A stretch of DNA of 64,000 nucleotides, taken from positions 434,001 to 498,000 of the forward strand of contig NZ_JAEPPI010000001.1 of assembly GCF_017641085.1 (NCBI RefSeq). The letters run 5' to 3'. Within the stretch, counting starts at the first letter, position 1. Every line of letters begins with the position of its first letter. The DNA comes from Gracilimonas sp. (GTDB lineage: Bacteria > Bacteroidota > Rhodothermia > Balneolales > Balneolaceae). The notes under the pieces are model-generated. The model ran no database searches. It saw only the letters and a list, made by a program, of their open reading frames with translations, and was not told the DNA's origin. The translations under genes and the position numbers were made by a program. Positions 2,304 to 32,806 of the stretch are shown in pieces.

Positions 2304-4964
2304 TCAGAGATTATCCTCAGTTGCTTTTTTTTCAATTAGTTGTAAACGGTCTGGTTTCTCCCAGTTGTTATAGTGTGTTTCAAGCCACTTTTTTACAGTT
2401 TGTGTAAAAGGATAATCCAACCCGATTGAATTGCCAAGTTTATGGTACCCATTAAGTAAAAGCGAATCGGCTTGTTCAAACTTACCTTGTTGAGATAAAC
2501 TAAATCCATAAGCACTTTTCGTCTGAGCCACTCTCCAGCCATCAGATGGGTAACCACTTAGGCGAATTTCATGGGCTTTCTTTAGCATTTCTTCTGCTTT
2601 TTTAGTTTGACCGGTTTCCAGGTAGGCAAGTCCTAATGCAAATAGAGGATCTGAGGTTCGGGGATGGCTGGGAGGGTATATTTGTTTATACTCTTCGTTT
2701 ACCTGGTTGAGTATTTCAAAAGCCTGATCATAATTTCCGGTCCGCAGGTTTATTCTCCCAAGATTTAGCCTCGTACGGGAAACATAGGGGTGTTGATCTC
2801 CATAGAGTTTGGTTAGTTTTTGATAGGCAATATTTAGAAGGGAGTCAGCTTTATTAAACTGTTTCTGTTCCAATTTAATATGTCCTAAACTTCCAATACC
2901 GAGGGCCACGTCAATACTATTTTCATCTGTAAGTTTACGGTGCATGGCAAGGGATGCGCGCTGTTGTTCCTCGGCTTCTACAAGTTGGCCACTTTCCCTA
3001 AGCAGAGCCGAATAGTTACTCATAATAATGGCGGTATTTGGATGATCTCCCAAGACCTCCTGATACATTTCAACCGACTGTCTGTAATAAGGCCTTGCCT
3101 GATCATATAAACCCTGAGCATGAAAAAGAGTGGCCAGGTCATTGAGATTTTTGGCTACATGCGCATGATTCTCCTGTCCATGAATGGTGTACCGCAAATT
3201 AAGTGCTTTAGTGAGCATTGAATCTGCCGTATCATAATCACCCTTATTAAACCACATCAGGTTTCCTAAGTGATTTAGAGCAGAAATAGCAGGCTGATTT
3301 TCAAGTCCTTCTTCCGTTTGTTCAAAGTAGCTAATGCTTTTAGTAAGTAAAGACTCTGCTTCAGAGAATCTACCTTGTTCCTGGTAAAGAAAGGCCAGGT
3401 TTCTCATAGCTTTAGCTTGTGCATAATCAGGCCCTGAGCTGATTTGTTTTTGCAACTCAAGAGCGTCTGTAAGAAGTGTTTCGGCCTTCGCAAATTCACC
3501 AAGACTGTTATACACATCGCCGATCACACTTTTCATTTCTGCCTGAATCTCGGGTTGATTTTGAAGTTCATCATCAATCTTGTCGGAACCATACCTGAGA
3601 ATGGAACCCAGTGTCTGATTCAGGCCACTTTCAGACTCTTCAAAATAGGGATTTGATTGACTGAAAAGGTCGGTAAGAAATCCAGCCACTTCTTCAGCTT
3701 TTTGAGCTTCAAGCTGTGCCTGATTGCGTTCCTGGGTAATCCTCCAGGTATAAAAACCAATTAAAGCTGAAATCCCAATAAGTATGCCAGTCGCAATAAT
3801 AATACCCTGATGATGCCGCCGCATGAATTTCTCTGAACGGTAGCGGAATGAATCGTCACGTGCTGACACCGGTAATCCTTCATCATAATTATGCAGGTCG
3901 CTGAGGAAATCACTGGCAGTACGGTAACGTGATTCGGGCTCTTTGCGTATTGATTTCATGATAATCGCATCGAGATCACCTTTGAGCTTTTCTTTGACAT
4001 CTTTTCCAGCAACCGAACTTGGTAGTTCAGGTTCTTTTTCTACAATTATTTGTTCAACCTGGTACCTGGTCAGGTCGTCCAGATCAAAAGGCTCTTGCCC
4101 GGTAAGAAGTTTGTATAGAATCACACCCAAAGAATAGAAATCAGAAGCTGTGGTAATATTTCCGTTTTTAATCTGTTCAGGAGAGGCATATCTCAGTGTT
4201 AAAATCTGGGTCCCGGTTTTGGTAAGGCTGAAGTCGTCATCATCAAGAAGTTTAGAAATACCAAAATCGAGGATTTTCACATTTCCCTGCTGATCAATTA
4301 GAATGTTATCCGGTTTCAGGTCGCGATGGATGGTAAGGTTTTCATGTGCATATTGAACGGCATCCAAAACTTTTTTGAACAGCTCAATTTTTTGTTTTAC
4401 AGAACAGTTTTTTTGCTGGCAATACTCAGTTATAGGCTCACCATCAATATATTCCATTATAATAAACGGAAAGCCATCATCCGTAACGCCGCCATCGTAA
4501 AGCTGAGCAATTCCGGGATGCTTTAGATTTGCAAGGATCTGCTGTTCTTTCTTGAATCGTTGGATGTTTTCATCAGTAGCACGATGTTTCTGTATGATTT
4601 TCAGAGCTACTTCGTGAGTAAAGTCCTCATCGGCACGCTCGGCCAGAAATACGGAACCCATTCCTCCCTCGCCAATTTTCTCCGTAATGATATATGAACC
4701 GATTTTGGTGCCAATTACAGAATGGTTAGTGGAGAGGGAAGACAGGTCTTGGGAAGCTTGATCAAATAATCCTTCTTTGTATTTTTCAGGATGTTCAAGC
4801 CATCCTTCAGATTCAGTAATCGAGGCAAGTAGTAAGGTTACTTCATTATGCAGATCTCCATTGCCCTTACATCTTTCAAGCAAAAATTCTTCTCTCTCGT
4901 CGATAGGTAGTTCCAATACCTCATCTATAATTGTTTCAACTGTTTGCCAGTTATAATTGTCCAT
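2304..4964 (-). CDS. Transmembrane Ser/Thr protein kinase with C-terminal TPR repeats
   Basis: This is a Hanks-type protein kinase. The glycine loop GEGGMGSV is at residues 98-105, the ATP-anchoring lysine at 122 (ALKII), the catalytic loop HRDLKPDN from 213, and DFG at 233-235, followed by SPEQ in the activation segment. All catalytic residues are present, so it should be active. A transmembrane helix at about 388-406 is followed by a coiled segment and roughly nine tetratricopeptide repeats (about 470-840) rich in NLA/ALxYxxxGxxxxAE patterns. The kinase is therefore cytoplasmic and the TPR array extracytoplasmic. An ECF sigma gene lies 82 bases upstream on the same strand, and the two are probably one operon. 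Sigma-kinase-TPR pairs of this kind are known in Planctomycetes and Balneolota/Rhodothermota; the target is unknown. Confidence 0.93.
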   Translation of the reverse strand: MDNYNWQTVETIIDEVLELPIDEREEFLLERCKGNGDLHNEVTLLLASITESEGWLEHPEKYKEGLFDQASQDLSSLSTNHSVIGTKIGSYIITEKIGEGGMGSVFLAERADEDFTHEVALKIIQKHRATDENIQRFKKEQQILANLKHPGIAQLYDGGVTDDGFPFIIMEYIDGEPITEYCQQKNCSVKQKIELFKKVLDAVQYAHENLTIHRDLKPDNILIDQQGNVKILDFGISKLLDDDDFSLTKTGTQILTLRYASPEQIKNGNITTASDFYSLGVILYKLLTGQEPFDLDDLTRYQVEQIIVEKEPELPSSVAGKDVKEKLKGDLDAIIMKSIRKEPESRYRTASDFLSDLHNYDEGLPVSARDDSFRYRSEKFMRRHHQGIIIATGILIGISALIGFYTWRITQERNQAQLEAQKAEEVAGFLTDLFSQSNPYFEESESGLNQTLGSILRYGSDKIDDELQNQPEIQAEMKSVIGDVYNSLGEFAKAETLLTDALELQKQISSGPDYAQAKAMRNLAFLYQEQGRFSEAESLLTKSISYFEQTEEGLENQPAISALNHLGNLMWFNKGDYDTADSMLTKALNLRYTIHGQENHAHVAKNLNDLATLFHAQGLYDQARPYYRQSVEMYQEVLGDHPNTAIIMSNYSALLRESGQLVEAEEQQRASLAMHRKLTDENSIDVALGIGSLGHIKLEQKQFNKADSLLNIAYQKLTKLYGDQHPYVSRTRLNLGRINLRTGNYDQAFEILNQVNEEYKQIYPPSHPRTSDPLFALGLAYLETGQTKKAEEMLKKAHEIRLSGYPSDGWRVAQTKSAYGFSLSQQGKFEQADSLLLNGYHKLGNSIGLDYPFTQTVKKWLETHYNNWEKPDRLQLIEKKATEDNL

Positions 4965-5046: not shown

Positions 5047-5619
5047 CTAAACTTCGAATTTCCCTTTTAACTCTTTATAGAGCCAACCCCTTGCTTTCAT
5101 CCAGTCTCTTTTAACGGTGCTTTTAGAAATGTTAAGCGCTTCTGCGGTGTCCTCAATGGTCATTTCACCGAAAAATCTCATTTCTACCACTTTGGCCAGA
5201 CGTTCATTTAATTTTTCGAGTTCGTTTAAGGCATCATCTATATCAATAAGTTCTTTGGCTTTCTTTTTTTGCTTACTGAAGATTTCATCGATATACGTCA
5301 GGTCTTTATTCTTCCCGCCTCTTTTTTGGGCATGCTTTTTACGGGCGTGATCAATCAAAATTTGGCGCATGCATTTGGAAGCGATTGCTAAAAAGTGGCT
5401 TTTATCCGAAAAGTTGATCGTAGTTTGATCAATCATTTTTAGATAGGCTTCATGAACCAGCTCTGTTTTGGAAAGAGTATGATCATCTCTTTGATGTATC
5501 ATATGGCGATAAGCAAGCTGTTTCAGCTCTCCATAGATAAGAGGGTATAGCTGTTCGTAAACTTTATTTTCTCCCGACTTAAGCCTTTGTAAAAGCTGAG
5601 TTACTTCTTCTTTTTCCAT
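5047..5619 (-). CDS. ECF-type RNA polymerase sigma factor (Sigma70_ECF)
   Basis: A 190-residue sigma factor of the extracytoplasmic-function type. Region 2 is at about residues 20-95 (SKTELVHEAYLKMID and a following DHARKKHAQKR segment). Region 4 has a C-terminal helix-turn-helix around 130-180 with EDTAEALNISKSTVKRDW. The sequence resembles the PF07638-like ECF group often paired with protein kinases rather than with anti-sigma factors. It lies directly upstream of the Ser/Thr kinase-TPR gene on the same strand. I infer that kinase signalling and sigma activity are linked. No anti-sigma gene is visible nearby. Confidence 0.92.
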   Translation of the reverse strand: MEKEEVTQLLQRLKSGENKVYEQLYPLIYGELKQLAYRHMIHQRDDHTLSKTELVHEAYLKMIDQTTINFSDKSHFLAIASKCMRQILIDHARKKHAQKRGGKNKDLTYIDEIFSKQKKKAKELIDIDDALNELEKLNERLAKVVEMRFFGEMTIEDTAEALNISKSTVKRDWMKARGWLYKELKGKFEV

Positions 5620-6096: not shown

Positions 6097-9000
6097 ATGT
6101 TCAAAAGAGACTTTGCTTACAATTTTGCAGAAACAAATAATAGAATCTATAAAAAACTCACAGCTTCCCTACTTACGTTTGCATTTGCAATGTTACTGTG
6201 GGTTCCTGTCCAGGCTCAATTAGATTACCAGTGGGTGTGGCAAAGTGGTTCTGACGAGATAGAACAATTTGGAGTGTACGGTACAAAAGGTGTTGCCTCG
6301 GTTTCTAATGTGCCCGGAGCCAGAGAGTATGCTATTTCATGGGTGGGCCCAGACGGTGATTTGTGGCTGATGGGAGGGGAAGGAGCCGATATAAATGGAG
6401 ATAATGGTCACCTTAATGACTTATGGCGGTATGATATACCCAGCGATGAATGGACTTGGGTTAGCGGAGCTGATACGGTTGACCAAGTCGGGATATATGG
6501 TACTAAGGGGGTGGCAAGCAATTCAAATGTTCCTGGGGCAAGAAAAGGAGCCATTAGCTGGACAGGGCCAAATGGAAATTTGTGGCTAATGGGAGGGTAT
6601 GGATACGATGTAAATGGAGATCTTGGTCAACTTAATGACATGTGGCACTATGACCTTTCCAGCGGTCAGTGGATATGGGTAAGCGGAGAGAAAACTCGTA
6701 ATCAAAGTGGTGTGTACGGCATAAAAGGAAGCGCTTCAGCAGCTACAGTGCCAGGGAGCAGAAATGATGCTATCTCTTGGGTGGGTCCGGACGGCGATTT
6801 GTGGCTGATGGGAGGGTTTGGGTACGATGTAAATGGAAATGTTGGTAGTCTTAATGACCTATGGCGCTATGACCTTTCCAGCGAACAGTGGACTTGGGAA
6901 AGCGGGACTGATGATGAAAATCAAACGGGCGTATATGGTACGAAAGGTAATGCAGCAGTCTCAAATGTGCCAGGCGGTAGAACTTTTGCCATATCTTGGG
7001 TTGGTCCTGATGGCGATTTGTGGCTGATGGGAGGGATAGGGTACGATATAAATGGAGATGAAGGTTACCTCAATGACCTTTGGCGTTATGACCTTTCGAG
7101 CGAGCAGTGGACGTGGGAGAGCGGATCAAATATAGAGGGGCAAATGGGGGTATACGGTGTTAAAGGAGAAGCCTCAGACTCCAATTTGCCCAGGGCAAGA
7201 ATTCATTCAGTTTCGTGGGTTAGCCCGGACGGTGACTTATGGCTAATGGGAGGGATTGGAGTAGGCGGTTTCCTCAATGACCTGTGGCGCTATGATCTTT
7301 CCAGTGAGCAGTGGACGTGGGAACGTGGGGAGAAATTTACCTATCAAAATGGAGTGTACGGTACGAAAGGAATCGCCTCGGCAACTACTGAACCCGGGAG
7401 CAGAAAAGGTTCTATCACTTGGGTGGACCCGAACGGCAATTTTTGGCTTATGGGAGGGTATGGGAGAAACTCTAATTTTGAGACTGATCGACTCAATGAC
7501 CTATGGCAACTCACCAGTAAGCCCGGTGCCTTAGAACTGGACGGAAGCGCCATGTATGGAAGGGTACCTGATGTAAATGAGTTGGATGCCAGTAATGCCT
7601 TAACTTTGGAGACCTGGGTGAAATTTGATGATGTGGACCGAAGCTCTCCGGGACAAAATTACACCACGCTTGTTATGAAAGGGGATGTTAGCAGTACCTA
7701 TTCCTATGGCCTGCTGTTAAATACGGGCAGCACAAATAAAACGCTGAGCTTCTACCATAATGGACTCACTTCAAACAATACTGATTATGACTGGACCGGC
7801 ATACAAAATGACATCTGGTATCACGTAGCTGCTACCTACGATGGCTCAAATGCAAAAATCTATATCAACGGAGCAGAGCAGGCCATTTCAGATGTTTCGG
7901 GTTCTATCAGTAATACTTCTGACAGTTTGTTCATTGGCCAAAATGGAGGCAACACCAAATGGAGACTGGATGGTACCATCTCCGGAGTACGTGTGTGGGA
8001 TGATGCCCGTTCCCAACAGGAAATTCAGGATAATATGAACCTTTCGCTGAGTGGTGCAGAACCAAATTTGGTGGGCAGCTGGCTGCCGCGAACCGGTTCA
8101 CGCCACAGTGCCTCAGACCAATCCGGAAACGGTAATAATATGTACCTGTTCCGTGGGGATTACATCACGGACTTCCCGACTACAACCGGTGTTGTAATCG
8201 GCAGTGAAGGCTGGCGTTTCCTGGCTGCTCCGGGAGATACGAGTACGTACGGTGAATTGCTTTCAGATGTCTGGACCCAGGGATATACTGGATCAGACGG
8301 AGGTATACCCCCAAGCTCCAACGTCTATTATTATGATGAGACTACTAAAAGCTGGGAGGTTCCATCCAATGCTACCAATATCGTAGGCTCATCCAGTAAC
8401 ACCCCCGACAGTGCAGGCAATGGAGCTTTGGTTTTTGTTTATGCCGATGATGATAATGACGGCACAGATGATCCCTTTCCCAAAACCCTACAATTGGACG
8501 ACTTTAGTAAAACCCGTCCGGTCAAGCTGCCACTTAGTTATACCGATTCCGGCGTGCCGCAAAATGATGGCTGGCATTTGGTTTCCAATCCTTATCCGGT
8601 AGCTATTAATTGGTATGAGATCGTTCAGGATGAAGCGAATACGAATACACTGGATTACACTTACATATGGGATCACAGTTTAAATGGCGGGTCCGGCGGA
8701 TACCAGGTTCATTATGGGATTGCCAAACCCCCTTCTTTACCCGGCGAAAGCACCTTCGACGGTCGCATTCCGGCGTTCCAGTCTTTTTGGGTGAAAGCAG
8801 AGGGAGCCGATGCCAGCCTCAACCTGACGGCTGATCATCATGTGGTCAATACCGAATTGTATAAGAATGCGACCGATCCATCACCATATATTAAACTATC
8901 CCTGGAAGGACAACAGTTCAGCGACCAGGTCAGCGTGGTGTTTCCGGAAAGCGAAGACGATGCACGAAAAGACGTACCTAAACTAAATAGCCTGTCGGCA

Positions 9001-9669
9001 CAACACGCCGAATTATTTATTGACGGTGAGGCTTCATCGCGATGGATGGCGATTCATAAAACCCCGGAAGCCCTGGAGCAGAATTTTTCGGTTCCTGTGG
9101 ATGTGGATATTACCGTCAACGGCACCTATAGCCTCAGCTGGGATCAATCAGAAATTCCTGAAGAATGGACGGTGAAACTCGAAGACACCCAAACCGGAGA
9201 ACGGATGGATGTCTCCGAAACCGAGAGCTTTGAGTTTACGGTCAACAGCGAAAGCAATGCCAAACTGGCCGATAGCAAACAGCTGATCCTGCCTAAAGCT
9301 CCGGGAAGCTCAGTGGCTAAGCATAATGAAGAAGAAACTCCGCGATTCAGGCTGCACTTTACGAACCTGGTGGGCACCAATATTGGTAACGGCTCAAATC
9401 TACCAGCTTCCGTGGAGCTTAACCAAAACTATCCGAATCCGTTTAACCCAACTACCACTATCAAATATGGACTACCGGAGCAGGCCAGCGTACAGCTGGA
9501 GGTGTACAACATGCTGGGGCAGCGGGTGGCTGAATTGGTTAGCAAAGAGCAATCAGCCGGTAACTATGAAGTCAACTTTGATTCCGGAGGATACACCAGT
9601 GGGGTATATATTTACCAGCTGACGGTAGGCGAGAAAGTCATCACCAAAAAAATGACGCTTATTAAATAA
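6097..9669 (+). CDS. Giant secreted kelch-repeat / LamG protein with T9SS sorting domain
   Basis: A 1190-residue exported protein. A signal peptide ends near residue 41 (VPVQAQ). Six kelch-type repeats of 73 residues follow to about residue 470. Each has a VYGTKG segment, an ISWVGPDGDLWLMGG strand and LNDLWRYDLSSEQW. Six blades suit a closed beta-propeller. A LamG/concanavalin-like domain follows at about 485-640 (LTLETWVKF, GTISGVRVWDDARS). After a long beta-rich stretch, the C-terminus (about 1108-1190) carries the type IX secretion sorting domain with NQNYPNPFNPTTTIKY and a terminal basic motif. The protein should cross the outer membrane through the T9SS. Carbohydrate or surface binding is likely but not shown. 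A terminator follows the gene. Confidence 0.92.
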   Translation: MFKRDFAYNFAETNNRIYKKLTASLLTFAFAMLLWVPVQAQLDYQWVWQSGSDEIEQFGVYGTKGVASVSNVPGAREYAISWVGPDGDLWLMGGEGADINGDNGHLNDLWRYDIPSDEWTWVSGADTVDQVGIYGTKGVASNSNVPGARKGAISWTGPNGNLWLMGGYGYDVNGDLGQLNDMWHYDLSSGQWIWVSGEKTRNQSGVYGIKGSASAATVPGSRNDAISWVGPDGDLWLMGGFGYDVNGNVGSLNDLWRYDLSSEQWTWESGTDDENQTGVYGTKGNAAVSNVPGGRTFAISWVGPDGDLWLMGGIGYDINGDEGYLNDLWRYDLSSEQWTWESGSNIEGQMGVYGVKGEASDSNLPRARIHSVSWVSPDGDLWLMGGIGVGGFLNDLWRYDLSSEQWTWERGEKFTYQNGVYGTKGIASATTEPGSRKGSITWVDPNGNFWLMGGYGRNSNFETDRLNDLWQLTSKPGALELDGSAMYGRVPDVNELDASNALTLETWVKFDDVDRSSPGQNYTTLVMKGDVSSTYSYGLLLNTGSTNKTLSFYHNGLTSNNTDYDWTGIQNDIWYHVAATYDGSNAKIYINGAEQAISDVSGSISNTSDSLFIGQNGGNTKWRLDGTISGVRVWDDARSQQEIQDNMNLSLSGAEPNLVGSWLPRTGSRHSASDQSGNGNNMYLFRGDYITDFPTTTGVVIGSEGWRFLAAPGDTSTYGELLSDVWTQGYTGSDGGIPPSSNVYYYDETTKSWEVPSNATNIVGSSSNTPDSAGNGALVFVYADDDNDGTDDPFPKTLQLDDFSKTRPVKLPLSYTDSGVPQNDGWHLVSNPYPVAINWYEIVQDEANTNTLDYTYIWDHSLNGGSGGYQVHYGIAKPPSLPGESTFDGRIPAFQSFWVKAEGADASLNLTADHHVVNTELYKNATDPSPYIKLSLEGQQFSDQVSVVFPESEDDARKDVPKLNSLSAQHAELFIDGEASSRWMAIHKTPEALEQNFSVPVDVDITVNGTYSLSWDQSEIPEEWTVKLEDTQTGERMDVSETESFEFTVNSESNAKLADSKQLILPKAPGSSVAKHNEEETPRFRLHFTNLVGTNIGNGSNLPASVELNQNYPNPFNPTTTIKYGLPEQASVQLEVYNMLGQRVAELVSKEQSAGNYEVNFDSGGYTSGVYIYQLTVGEKVITKKMTLIK
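6229..7515 (+). repeat. Six tandem 219-bp kelch repeats inside the surface protein gene
   Basis: The anchor CTTAATGAC or CTCAATGAC occurs at 6412, 6631, 6850, 7069, 7273 and 7492. Spacing is 219, 219, 219, 204 and 219 bases, so the fifth unit is 15 bases shorter. Neighbouring units are close in DNA sequence, which suggests recent duplication or gene conversion. Confidence 0.9.
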
Positions 9670-9764
9670 TAAAATGAGCCGCTTTAGATTTTCTTTACGC
9701 ATACAAGTATAAGTACAAGCAAATATCAATTGCTTTACAAATGGGGTTTTCGGGGCTCAGAATG

Positions 9765-9793
9765 AAAGGAAGGCAGTTTGCCTTCCTTTTTTT
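9765..9793 (+). terminator. Rho-independent terminator after the kelch/T9SS gene
   Basis: The stem AAAGGAAGGCA / TGCCTTCCTTT has a three-base loop (GTT) and runs into a T tract. It is about 95 bases past the stop codon of the surface protein gene. Confidence 0.9.
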
Positions 9794-9879
9794 ATGCATT
9801 CTAATTGGCCGGTACTTTCCATAGTTTATCCCTTCACCTTCAAACAAAAAATCGATACGTGGATCATTCGACTCTTCTG

Positions 9880-10905
9880 ATGCCTGCGGAATGGTTCCGG
9901 CATTCAGCTACTCAGCTACACTGGCCTTCAAACCAAAACACCTGGCCCGGAGAACGACTGGAACGTGTGGAAGAGGTGTATTGCAGAATCATCGAGGAAC
10001 TCCATTTTTTTGAACCGATTCACTTGTTTGTGGAAAACCTTGAAATTCGCAACCGGGTGATGCAAAAACTATCGGGCAAAGCCGTGGATCTGGATCGGGT
10101 AATAATTCATCAGCAAAAGATAAATGACGTTTGGGCCAGGGATTGCGGACCGGTTTTTGTGCAGCATGAATCCGGTAATTTTTCGATCATCGACTGGGAT
10201 TATAATGCATGGGGAGAAAAGTACCCGGATTGGGAAGATGACAATGCAATTCCTGCTTTTATTGCACAAAAGTTTGGGGTGAACCGTAATGAACCGGGTA
10301 TGATTTTGGAGGGTGGCTCAATTGACGTTAATGGCGAAGGTGCGCTGCTTACTACAGAAGCTGTGCTGTTGAATGGGAATCGGAACCCGGATCTATCCAA
10401 AGAAGAGATTGAAGAACGTTTACGAATCTATCTTGGGGCAGAGCAAATTATTTGGTTGAAAAGGGGATTGGCCGGGGATGATACCGGCGGAAAAATAGAC
10501 AACATCACCCGATGGTTGAATAAAGATACCGTTCTTACCATGGTTTGTGAGGACAAGGAAGACGTAAATTATGATGCGCTTCAGGAAAACCTGGAAATTC
10601 TCAAACAAGTAGAGTTGAAAGGGGGAAAGAAACTAAATATTGAAACGTTGCCACTTCCTCAAAACAAAACGGTGGGTACTGCCAAAAATGGTTCAGAGTA
10701 TGTTTCGGGCAGTTACGCCAATTTCTACATAGCCAATGGAGCTGTGTTACTTCCAATACTGGATGATAAGTGGGATAACCTGGCTAAAAGTCTTCTCCAG
10801 AAATACTTTCCAGGGCGCAAAGTAATTGGTATAGCATGTACAGATCTGCTGACAGGAAAAGGGTCCATCCACAGTATAACACAACCATGGTACGGGATAA
10901 ACTAA
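9880..10905 (+). CDS. Agmatine deiminase-like protein lacking catalytic Cys and His (putative pseudoenzyme)
   Basis: A 341-residue member of the agmatine deiminase/peptidylarginine deiminase family, from ATG 9880 (MPAEWFRHSATQLHWPS). The frame is open upstream to a TTG at 9805, but MPAEW fits the family N-terminus. Substrate-binding residues are kept: Asp88 in WARDCGP, Glu144 in LEGGSI, and Asp207. The family motif DGHxDN has become GGKIDN, giving Lys205 for the catalytic His. The C-terminal GGGxIHCITQ has become KGSIHSITQ, giving Ser332 (codon AGT) for the nucleophilic Cys. The thioester chemistry of the family therefore cannot run in the usual way. The gene is otherwise full length without frameshift, and I infer a binding or regulatory role. 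It converges on an M28 peptidase gene with no base between the stop codons. Confidence 0.88.
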   Translation: MPAEWFRHSATQLHWPSNQNTWPGERLERVEEVYCRIIEELHFFEPIHLFVENLEIRNRVMQKLSGKAVDLDRVIIHQQKINDVWARDCGPVFVQHESGNFSIIDWDYNAWGEKYPDWEDDNAIPAFIAQKFGVNRNEPGMILEGGSIDVNGEGALLTTEAVLLNGNRNPDLSKEEIEERLRIYLGAEQIIWLKRGLAGDDTGGKIDNITRWLNKDTVLTMVCEDKEDVNYDALQENLEILKQVELKGGKKLNIETLPLPQNKTVGTAKNGSEYVSGSYANFYIANGAVLLPILDDKWDNLAKSLLQKYFPGRKVIGIACTDLLTGKGSIHSITQPWYGIN

Positions 10906-12219
10906 TCAGTCATTAGACGTTAGGTTCTCGTCACCGTTGGAAATACGGGTTGGGGTCTTTTCTGCTGAGACAATCACGCGTGCCGCTTTAGCAATCGCCC
11001 GGATGGTATTGGTGGCATGGGGAATATCTAACGTGTTAAACTCGTCCGACACCCTGTGATAATCCTGATCCACGTCGATAGGCGTTGTGCTGATGGTATG
11101 AGCCGGAACTCCCAGTCTTGCCAGGGTGGCATTATCAGAACGGTAAAACAGGTTTTGATTGGGATAAGGATCGGGATAGAATACAAAGTTGGAATCGGAA
11201 ACGCTGTTTTGCAGAATTTCGCCAAAAGTGGATTTTTCAAAGCCGGTGATCCAGGCCGAATTTGCTCCGTCAACGTCCGGTTTACCAATCATTTCTATGT
11301 TAAACATGGCTACAATTTCATCGGGATTCATCTGCCGGGAAAAATATTTAGAACCATATCCACCCACTTCTTCGCCGGTAAAAGCCACAAAATAAAGGGT
11401 TCTTTCCGGCTGAGGCATTTTCTTAAAATATCGAGCCAGTTCTATGACGGCTGAAACACCGGAGGCATTGTCGTTTGCACCGTTAGCAATGGAGTCTTCA
11501 TCCACCGGCGAAACCACACCAATGTGATCATAATGAGCGGAGAAAAGAACGATTTCATTTTCACGCTTCCCTTCAATTTTCCCGATTACATTCGCAAGCT
11601 GCTGACTTTTTACAGTATTCTCCAGGGTTATATCATAATTGGTAACCCGTCCGTCAAAGAACACAAAGATGTCGTTAGGTTTTGAACCAAGCTCAAAAGT
11701 TCGGTTCGACCGGCTGAAATAGGTGCGGTATTTATGAAATAATTTCTCGTGTTCCTCATCAACGATGATTACAGACGATTCATCATCAGAAGAGTATTCA
11801 CTGAATTTATCCCGGTAGTCGTTGTTAGCTGAAATATAATGGATCGTGGAATTGTCGGCCGTCCAGTTAACGGTTTCTGCATTGGTAAGGCCGAAGTAAT
11901 GCTGATCTCCCAAATCCCGGTTATTTATTGAAACCGAAGCCTGACTGGGTTTCAGTGAATAAATTGAAAATTCCTGCCGGAAATTACTATTACCGTGAAG
12001 GGTAGAGAGGCCGATATCTTGATATTCGGCAGATATGAAATCGGCGGCTTTTTCGATGCCATTCCCAAAAGCGTGACGGCCTTTCATTTTGTCGGAGCTC
12101 AACGTTTCTATGATGCGGGAAACATTGCGTTCGGAGACCTGAGGCTGTGGAGTGCACGCAGAAATCAAAAAACCGAAAATAACGGCAAAGAATACGGTTA
12201 AAGCTGGAATTCGATCCAT
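10906..12219 (-). CDS. M28-family zinc metallopeptidase, lipoprotein
   Basis: A 437-residue aminopeptidase-like protein. The start is ATG 12219, which gives a proper lipoprotein signal with LISAC at residues 18-22. The in-frame TTG at 12255 would add a poor leader. The two-zinc site of the M28 family is visible: His229 (SAHYDH), Asp250 (GANDNASG), Glu283/Glu284 (TGEEVGG), Glu309 (FNIEM) and His388 (DYHRVSD). It should cleave N-terminal residues from peptides in the periplasm or at the outer membrane. The region of residues 90-190 is less conserved and resembles a PA-type insert. The stop codon abuts that of the convergent deiminase-like gene. Confidence 0.93.
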   Translation of the reverse strand: MDRIPALTVFFAVIFGFLISACTPQPQVSERNVSRIIETLSSDKMKGRHAFGNGIEKAADFISAEYQDIGLSTLHGNSNFRQEFSIYSLKPSQASVSINNRDLGDQHYFGLTNAETVNWTADNSTIHYISANNDYRDKFSEYSSDDESSVIIVDEEHEKLFHKYRTYFSRSNRTFELGSKPNDIFVFFDGRVTNYDITLENTVKSQQLANVIGKIEGKRENEIVLFSAHYDHIGVVSPVDEDSIANGANDNASGVSAVIELARYFKKMPQPERTLYFVAFTGEEVGGYGSKYFSRQMNPDEIVAMFNIEMIGKPDVDGANSAWITGFEKSTFGEILQNSVSDSNFVFYPDPYPNQNLFYRSDNATLARLGVPAHTISTTPIDVDQDYHRVSDEFNTLDIPHATNTIRAIAKAARVIVSAEKTPTRISNGDENLTSND

Positions 12220-12319
12220 GCTAACTTTTAAGGGTTTCGTTTTTAATACGCTCAATTTTAAGCAACCTTTTGGTCTCTATTTGAAAAAAAATGATACATC
12301 AGCGTAAAGCTCTGTAAAA

Positions 12320-32402: not shown

Positions 32403-32438
32403 ATTTAAATGAAAATGTCTTTAGTTTAGCAGCGAATT

Positions 32439-32631
32439 AATGATGGTCTCGGGTGTATGTGTTTCATCACCCAGAGTTAAAAGGGAATCTCGTGAGAAAC
32501 GAGAGCTGTTCCCGCAACTGTAATCCGAATCCGCCTCATGGCGGATGAAGTGCAGCCTCACCTTTGCCACTGTTTCTTAATTGAAACGGGAAGGCGCTGC
32601 AATCGGAGAAGCCAGGAGACCTGCCATCATT
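32439..32631 (+). ncRNA. Cobalamin riboswitch
   Basis: The aptamer is closed by a perfect helix AATGATGG (32439) / CCATCATT (32631). It holds the hallmark box segments AAAAGGGAA, CCCGCAACTGTAA and GCCAGGAGACCTGCC. A short hairpin follows (GCACCTCTTT with AAAAGGATGTGC, 32638-32672) and may be part of the expression platform. It should shut off btuB when adenosylcobalamin binds. Its position directly upstream of a TonB receptor, about 175 bases before the start codon, is the classical arrangement. Confidence 0.93.
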
Positions 32632-32806
32632 TAACCGATGCACCTCTTTCGGGTAAAAGGATGTGCAGCTGAACAATCATGCTTTTAGCTCTGGATTTTA
32701 TTCTGTTTCCCTCACACTGATTCCCAGTCCAAGGGATTACTGTATATCATTCAGAAGGAAGTTTTTTACCCGCCCAAAGTAATTCAAAATCATAAATACA
32801 AAATAC

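Follow-up and report, generated by a model that had tools for sequence, protein, structure and literature searches.

Conversion of an enzyme into a pseudoenzyme has mostly been inferred from ancient events. eIF6 is a non-catalytic protein of the pentein fold. In the fungal Ssd1/Dis3L2 pseudonucleases, the catalytic site was lost at least four times, an N-terminal part is conserved and a bifunctional ancestor has been proposed (PMC8097288). From agmatine, putrescine can be reached either through agmatinase or through the deiminase-amidase pair (PMC12283126). Here, we describe an agmatine deiminase-like gene, aguA, in a 64,000-nucleotide stretch of Gracilimonas sp. DNA (the window). We interpret its product as a pseudoenzyme that derives from agmatine deiminase and has been retained, and in which a putative binding surface came first and catalysis was later lost repeatedly once it was redundant, and we assign this reading a probability of roughly 0.7. 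Among the papers searched, none linked agmatine deiminase with a pseudoenzyme.

The gene, at 9880..10905 on the + strand of the window, is an intact open reading frame of 341 amino acids from an ATG, with an alternative GTG start at 9859. Its product, the sole PF04371 protein of its genome (G000), matches that family over its whole length in a profile search (E = 2.7e-106), and its AlphaFold2 model (pLDDT 91.7) has as its best PDB match 1xkn, an agmatine deiminase (TM 0.93); family homology and the pentein fold are thus both present. The fold is also predicted for the most diverged copy, that of genome G004 (pLDDT 88.6; TM 0.86 to 1xkn). Against the equivalog TIGR03380 the G000 protein scores 268 bits, compared to a cut-off of 382, and the intact orthologue in G006 reaches just 275 bits.

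Alignment to 1xkn places Lys205 (AAA, 10492..10494, + strand, in GGKIDN) at the position of the family's catalytic His and Ser332 (AGT, 10873..10875, + strand, in SIHSITQ) at that of its nucleophilic Cys, with Asp88, Glu144 and Asp207 still present, as an earlier note on this DNA had described. The His and Cys columns are each at least 97% conserved in 72 homologues, a set that leaves out the seven changed orthologues described below, and G000 has lost 7 of the 63 positions conserved to this degree, mostly near the active site. Further changes are D203G, D208N, P117D, P276S, W325T and Q327K; F212W is common to the intact relatives as well. A sequencing error is excluded because the separate genome G001 (93% identical), from another species of the genus, carries the same Lys and Ser. 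The G000 protein therefore lacks the nucleophilic Cys and catalytic His of an agmatine deiminase (EC 3.5.3.12) and, as is characteristic of a pseudoenzyme, has lost catalytic residues relative to its active homologues. Lys205 probably blocks the guanidinium site, and it is hardly possible that the protein acts as a cysteine-type guanidine hydrolase, a loss of activity that we infer from these replacements. This is a warning against labelling such proteins agmatine deiminases in annotation.

Our genus sample consists of 10 genomes (G000-G009) of the family Balneolaceae which, together with G026 from a related genus, form a small focal clade of 11. Each of the ten has one aguA orthologue at the syntenic locus. 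Three of these, in G006, G005 and G007 (83-74% identical), have the normal His and Cys, and catalytic residues were lost in the other seven in differing ways. The Lys/Ser pair is found only in G000 and G001. In G008 the Cys is replaced by Gly; G003 has His to Arg, Cys to Ser and Glu144 to Ala; in G004 the His loop is deleted; G002 combines Cys to Gly with replacement of Glu144 and Asp207; and G009 has His to Tyr with the same Glu and Asp losses as G002. Reading frames are intact in every dead copy except that of G009, which is cut by a contig end. The catalytic residues are retained in the other homologues that we read from the family and order. In a tree of rpoB and flanking genes, G000 and G001 group with G006 and then with G005 at 100% support, and a single loss for all dead copies was rejected (AU p = 5e-36). 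Grouping the remaining five (G008, G003, G004, G002 and G009) as one clade was not rejected (AU p = 0.23), so the firm minimum is that catalysis was lost at least twice. Four or five independent losses are more likely, since the replaced residues and the deletion ends differ.

The fate of the active site follows that of aguB, the gene for the next enzyme of the pathway. aguB (>320 bits to TIGR03381) adjoins aguA only in the three genomes with an intact site and is absent in exactly the seven with a changed AguA; the G000 gene thus also lacks the adjacent aguB that accompanies an agmatine deiminase. The aguB deletions differ among genomes, with a remnant of the first ~20 codons supported in G008 (p = 0.016 against G005; 0/2000 shuffles against G007), whereas none was found at the G000 and G001 loci. 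All seven aguB-less genomes of the genus retain aguA, unlike those elsewhere in the order, where G010, G011, G014, G032 and G041 lack both genes; G023 has a partial aguB match. G000 encodes an agmatinase (TIGR01230, 221 bits against a cut-off of 174), and the pair of fold-III decarboxylase and agmatinase is present in nine of the ten genomes. The exception is G005, which retains both AguA and AguB and is the only member of the genus with a pyruvoyl arginine decarboxylase. Because both routes lead from agmatine to putrescine, a genome with agmatinase can do without the deiminase route. Elsewhere in the G000 genome (C1:1035092-1038865), an operon-like row of genes encodes a fold-III arginine decarboxylase-like protein, an agmatinase and a deoxyhypusine synthase-like protein, which suggests an unusual polyamine end product.

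What all ten orthologues appear to share is an N-terminal surface segment, not the pocket. This patch, codons 25-78 (9952..10113, + strand), is modelled as helix 25-41, strand 47-51, helix 54-65 and strand 74-78, and its position in the predicted fold would place it on the surface. In all ten members of the genus, and in G026, its residues are nearly identical; in G015 they are half so. In other Balneolaceae AguAs, by comparison, they are the fastest-evolving stretch of the protein. The ratio of patch distance to distance in the rest of the protein is 2.62 in other Balneolaceae (1.03-4.61, 269 pairs) and falls to 0.54 for intact copies within the clade and 0.42 for dead ones. Of the sites that are near-invariant in the clade and highly variable outside it, 19 of 23 lie within residues 25-80 (p = 4e-13). 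The active-type G005, G006, G007 and G026 all carry the patch, so its constraint predates the catalytic losses. An overlapping gene, or an RNA element, was rejected as the source of the patch: synonymous sites there are no more conserved than the gene average (ratio about 1.05), and the constraint therefore acts on the protein. A weak excess of synonymous conservation lies at alignment codons 48-62, mostly ahead of the patch. No second copy of the patch was found elsewhere in the genus genomes.

The locus is ordered M28 peptidase (10906..12255, - strand), aguA, aguB where present, a divergent ECF sigma factor gene (5047..5619, - strand), a kinase/TPR gene and PEP carboxykinase. The ECF gene is a syntenic neighbour in 10/10 genomes and the M28 gene in most, being missing at the G003 locus. 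Among the genomes that carry the frozen patch there was no neighbouring gene common to all, G026 having neither the ECF nor the M28 neighbour, and these two were rejected as AguA partners: they adjoin aguA in this genus alone, and neither G026 nor G015 has them there. Upstream of aguA (9817..9858, + strand), a promoter-like TTTCCATAGTTTA is conserved with intact relatives in an upstream alignment made by eye, and the junction at which aguB is absent comes next. Before it, GGTTTTCGGGG is followed by an intrinsic-terminator-like hairpin (9745..9793, + strand), an element that in G006 stands just before aguB. The stem differs in sequence in G006, G005 and G004 yet still pairs, and the element, a single copy in the genome without an Rfam match, may be the end of a small RNA or an attenuator. 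Several other features of the window were observed. The kinase/TPR gene (3003-4964, - strand), next to the ECF gene, is much nearer in G000 to that of G006 (dN 0.022, dS 0.25) than to that of G001 (dN 0.47), an affinity that contradicts the species tree and the neighbouring genes and so points to recombination or transfer. Between the ECF gene and aguA lies a gene (6097-9669, + strand) for a kelch/LamG protein of 1190 aa that bears a sorting domain of the type IX secretion type; it is present at that site only in G000 and missing there in the other nine genomes. A cobalamin riboswitch is located at 32427-32642 (+ strand, 103 bits).

The least improbable of the alternatives, although we consider it unlikely, is ordinary pseudogene decay, in which aguB was lost first under a redundant route and aguA has since been drifting. 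It would account for active-site loss coming after aguB loss, and for part of the selection pattern. Because the shared ancestor of G000 and G001 had already lost Cys and His, divergence between them is post-loss, and over this interval dN/dS of aguA is 0.146 (bootstrap 0.079-0.240), in a data set where dS is saturated in most pairs and direct dN/dS comes from two close pairs only. Neighbouring genes in the same pair have values of 0.04-0.16, the kinase/TPR gene not being comparable. A branch model (MG94, our own script, with the species topology fixed), whose deep-branch values are rough, gave an omega outside the patch of 0.217 on the G000 and G001 branches, with omega = 1 rejected (2dlnL 36.5), a result that counts against decay. 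Equality with the intact relatives, at 0.066, was also rejected (2dlnL 15.6), and selection outside the patch is thus relaxed yet purifying. Relaxation goes further in the G002-G009 pair and in G004 (omega 0.57 and 0.48, each still different from 1; 2dlnL about 7). This weaker constraint means that the remainder of the protein is slowly decaying in some lineages. Within the patch, however, there are no amino acid changes between G000 and G001, omega in the G002-G009 pair is 0.12 compared to 0.51 outside, and on the G004 branch the patch differs from the rest (2dlnL 23.9). If the excess changes in G004 and G002 were neutral, about 7-8 stops would be expected, yet the frames are intact, and aguA is kept in 7/7 aguB-less genomes. 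Purifying selection thus retains the gene, as befits a pseudoenzyme, which bears out the earlier note in its view of a conserved protein and not one in decay. The genus does contain orthologues that keep Cys and His, a circumstance that the note had named as refuting, but the dN/dS near 1 or sequencing error that it required beside them was not found.

A slightly less probable alternative is a ligand sensor, in which the pocket still takes up agmatine or a polyamine but does not hydrolyse it, and the protein reports on the ligand. According to the title of PDB entry 6b2w, the Campylobacter jejuni enzyme with its Cys changed to Ser was crystallised with substrate bound, and the three acidic residues persist in G000. 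On the other hand, Lys205 would put a positive charge at the guanidinium position, and Glu144 or the whole loop is gone in G003, G004 and G002. Such variation among the other dead copies shows that it is not the pocket that is conserved. Ser/Lys dyads occur in other hydrolases. With this precedent and the persistence of Asp88, Glu144, Asp207 and the fold, Ser332 and Lys205 could form a new catalytic pair for another substrate, but we regard this as very improbable, because the pair is confined to G000 and G001, other dead orthologues have Gly, Arg and Ser with Glu144Ala, or a deleted loop, D203G, D208N, W325T and Q327K remodel the site too, and the shared conserved feature lies far from the pocket in sequence. 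The earlier note raised two possibilities, a non-catalytic binding protein and a changed chemistry. Our results support a retained protein that is hardly a cysteine-type hydrolase, but do not support a changed chemistry in which Lys and Ser make up a new active site kept across the genus: five orthologues differ there and three are normal.

We therefore return to the retained pseudoenzyme. We propose that, in the ancestor of the genus and G026, a new and strong constraint began to act on the outer face of the first blade (approximately residues 25-78), the simplest cause being the binding of another macromolecule, and that AguA would then have been bifunctional. An operon of arginine decarboxylase-like protein and agmatinase, making putrescine from agmatine in one step, would have rendered the deiminase-amidase route dispensable. 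aguB would then have been deleted and the AguA active site lost at least twice, with a non-catalytic role, putatively that of the patch as a binding surface, retaining the gene. That a protein-binding face was gained before catalysis was lost, giving independent pseudoenzyme conversions in one genus with bifunctional sister forms surviving, is in our judgment somewhat better than an even bet.

In its whole-length homology and predicted fold, the G000 protein resembles AguA (PF04371; PDB 1xkn, 3h7k, 2jer and 6b10), and its gene is syntenic with the intact aguA beside aguB in G005, G006 and G007. It differs in the replaced Cys and His, the loss of aguB and the newly constrained patch. The same general fold serves binding rather than catalysis in trypanosome RESC5 (PDB 8dpk) and eIF6; these are ancient and remote in sequence, whereas the change in G000 is recent and active sister enzymes occur in the same genus. 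A single bacterial genus thus harbours active, presumed bifunctional and dead orthologues, all at one locus and with no gene duplication, and loss is tied to a missing next pathway enzyme with a bypass present. The order "second function first, catalysis lost later" can therefore be tested directly: the patch names the residues, and the sister species are active controls. The closest described parallel is Ssd1/Dis3L2, where loss in orthologues was repeated, the N-terminal part is conserved and the ancestor is proposed to have been bifunctional, in a different fold and kingdom and with RNA binding and cytokinesis as the second function (PMC8097288).
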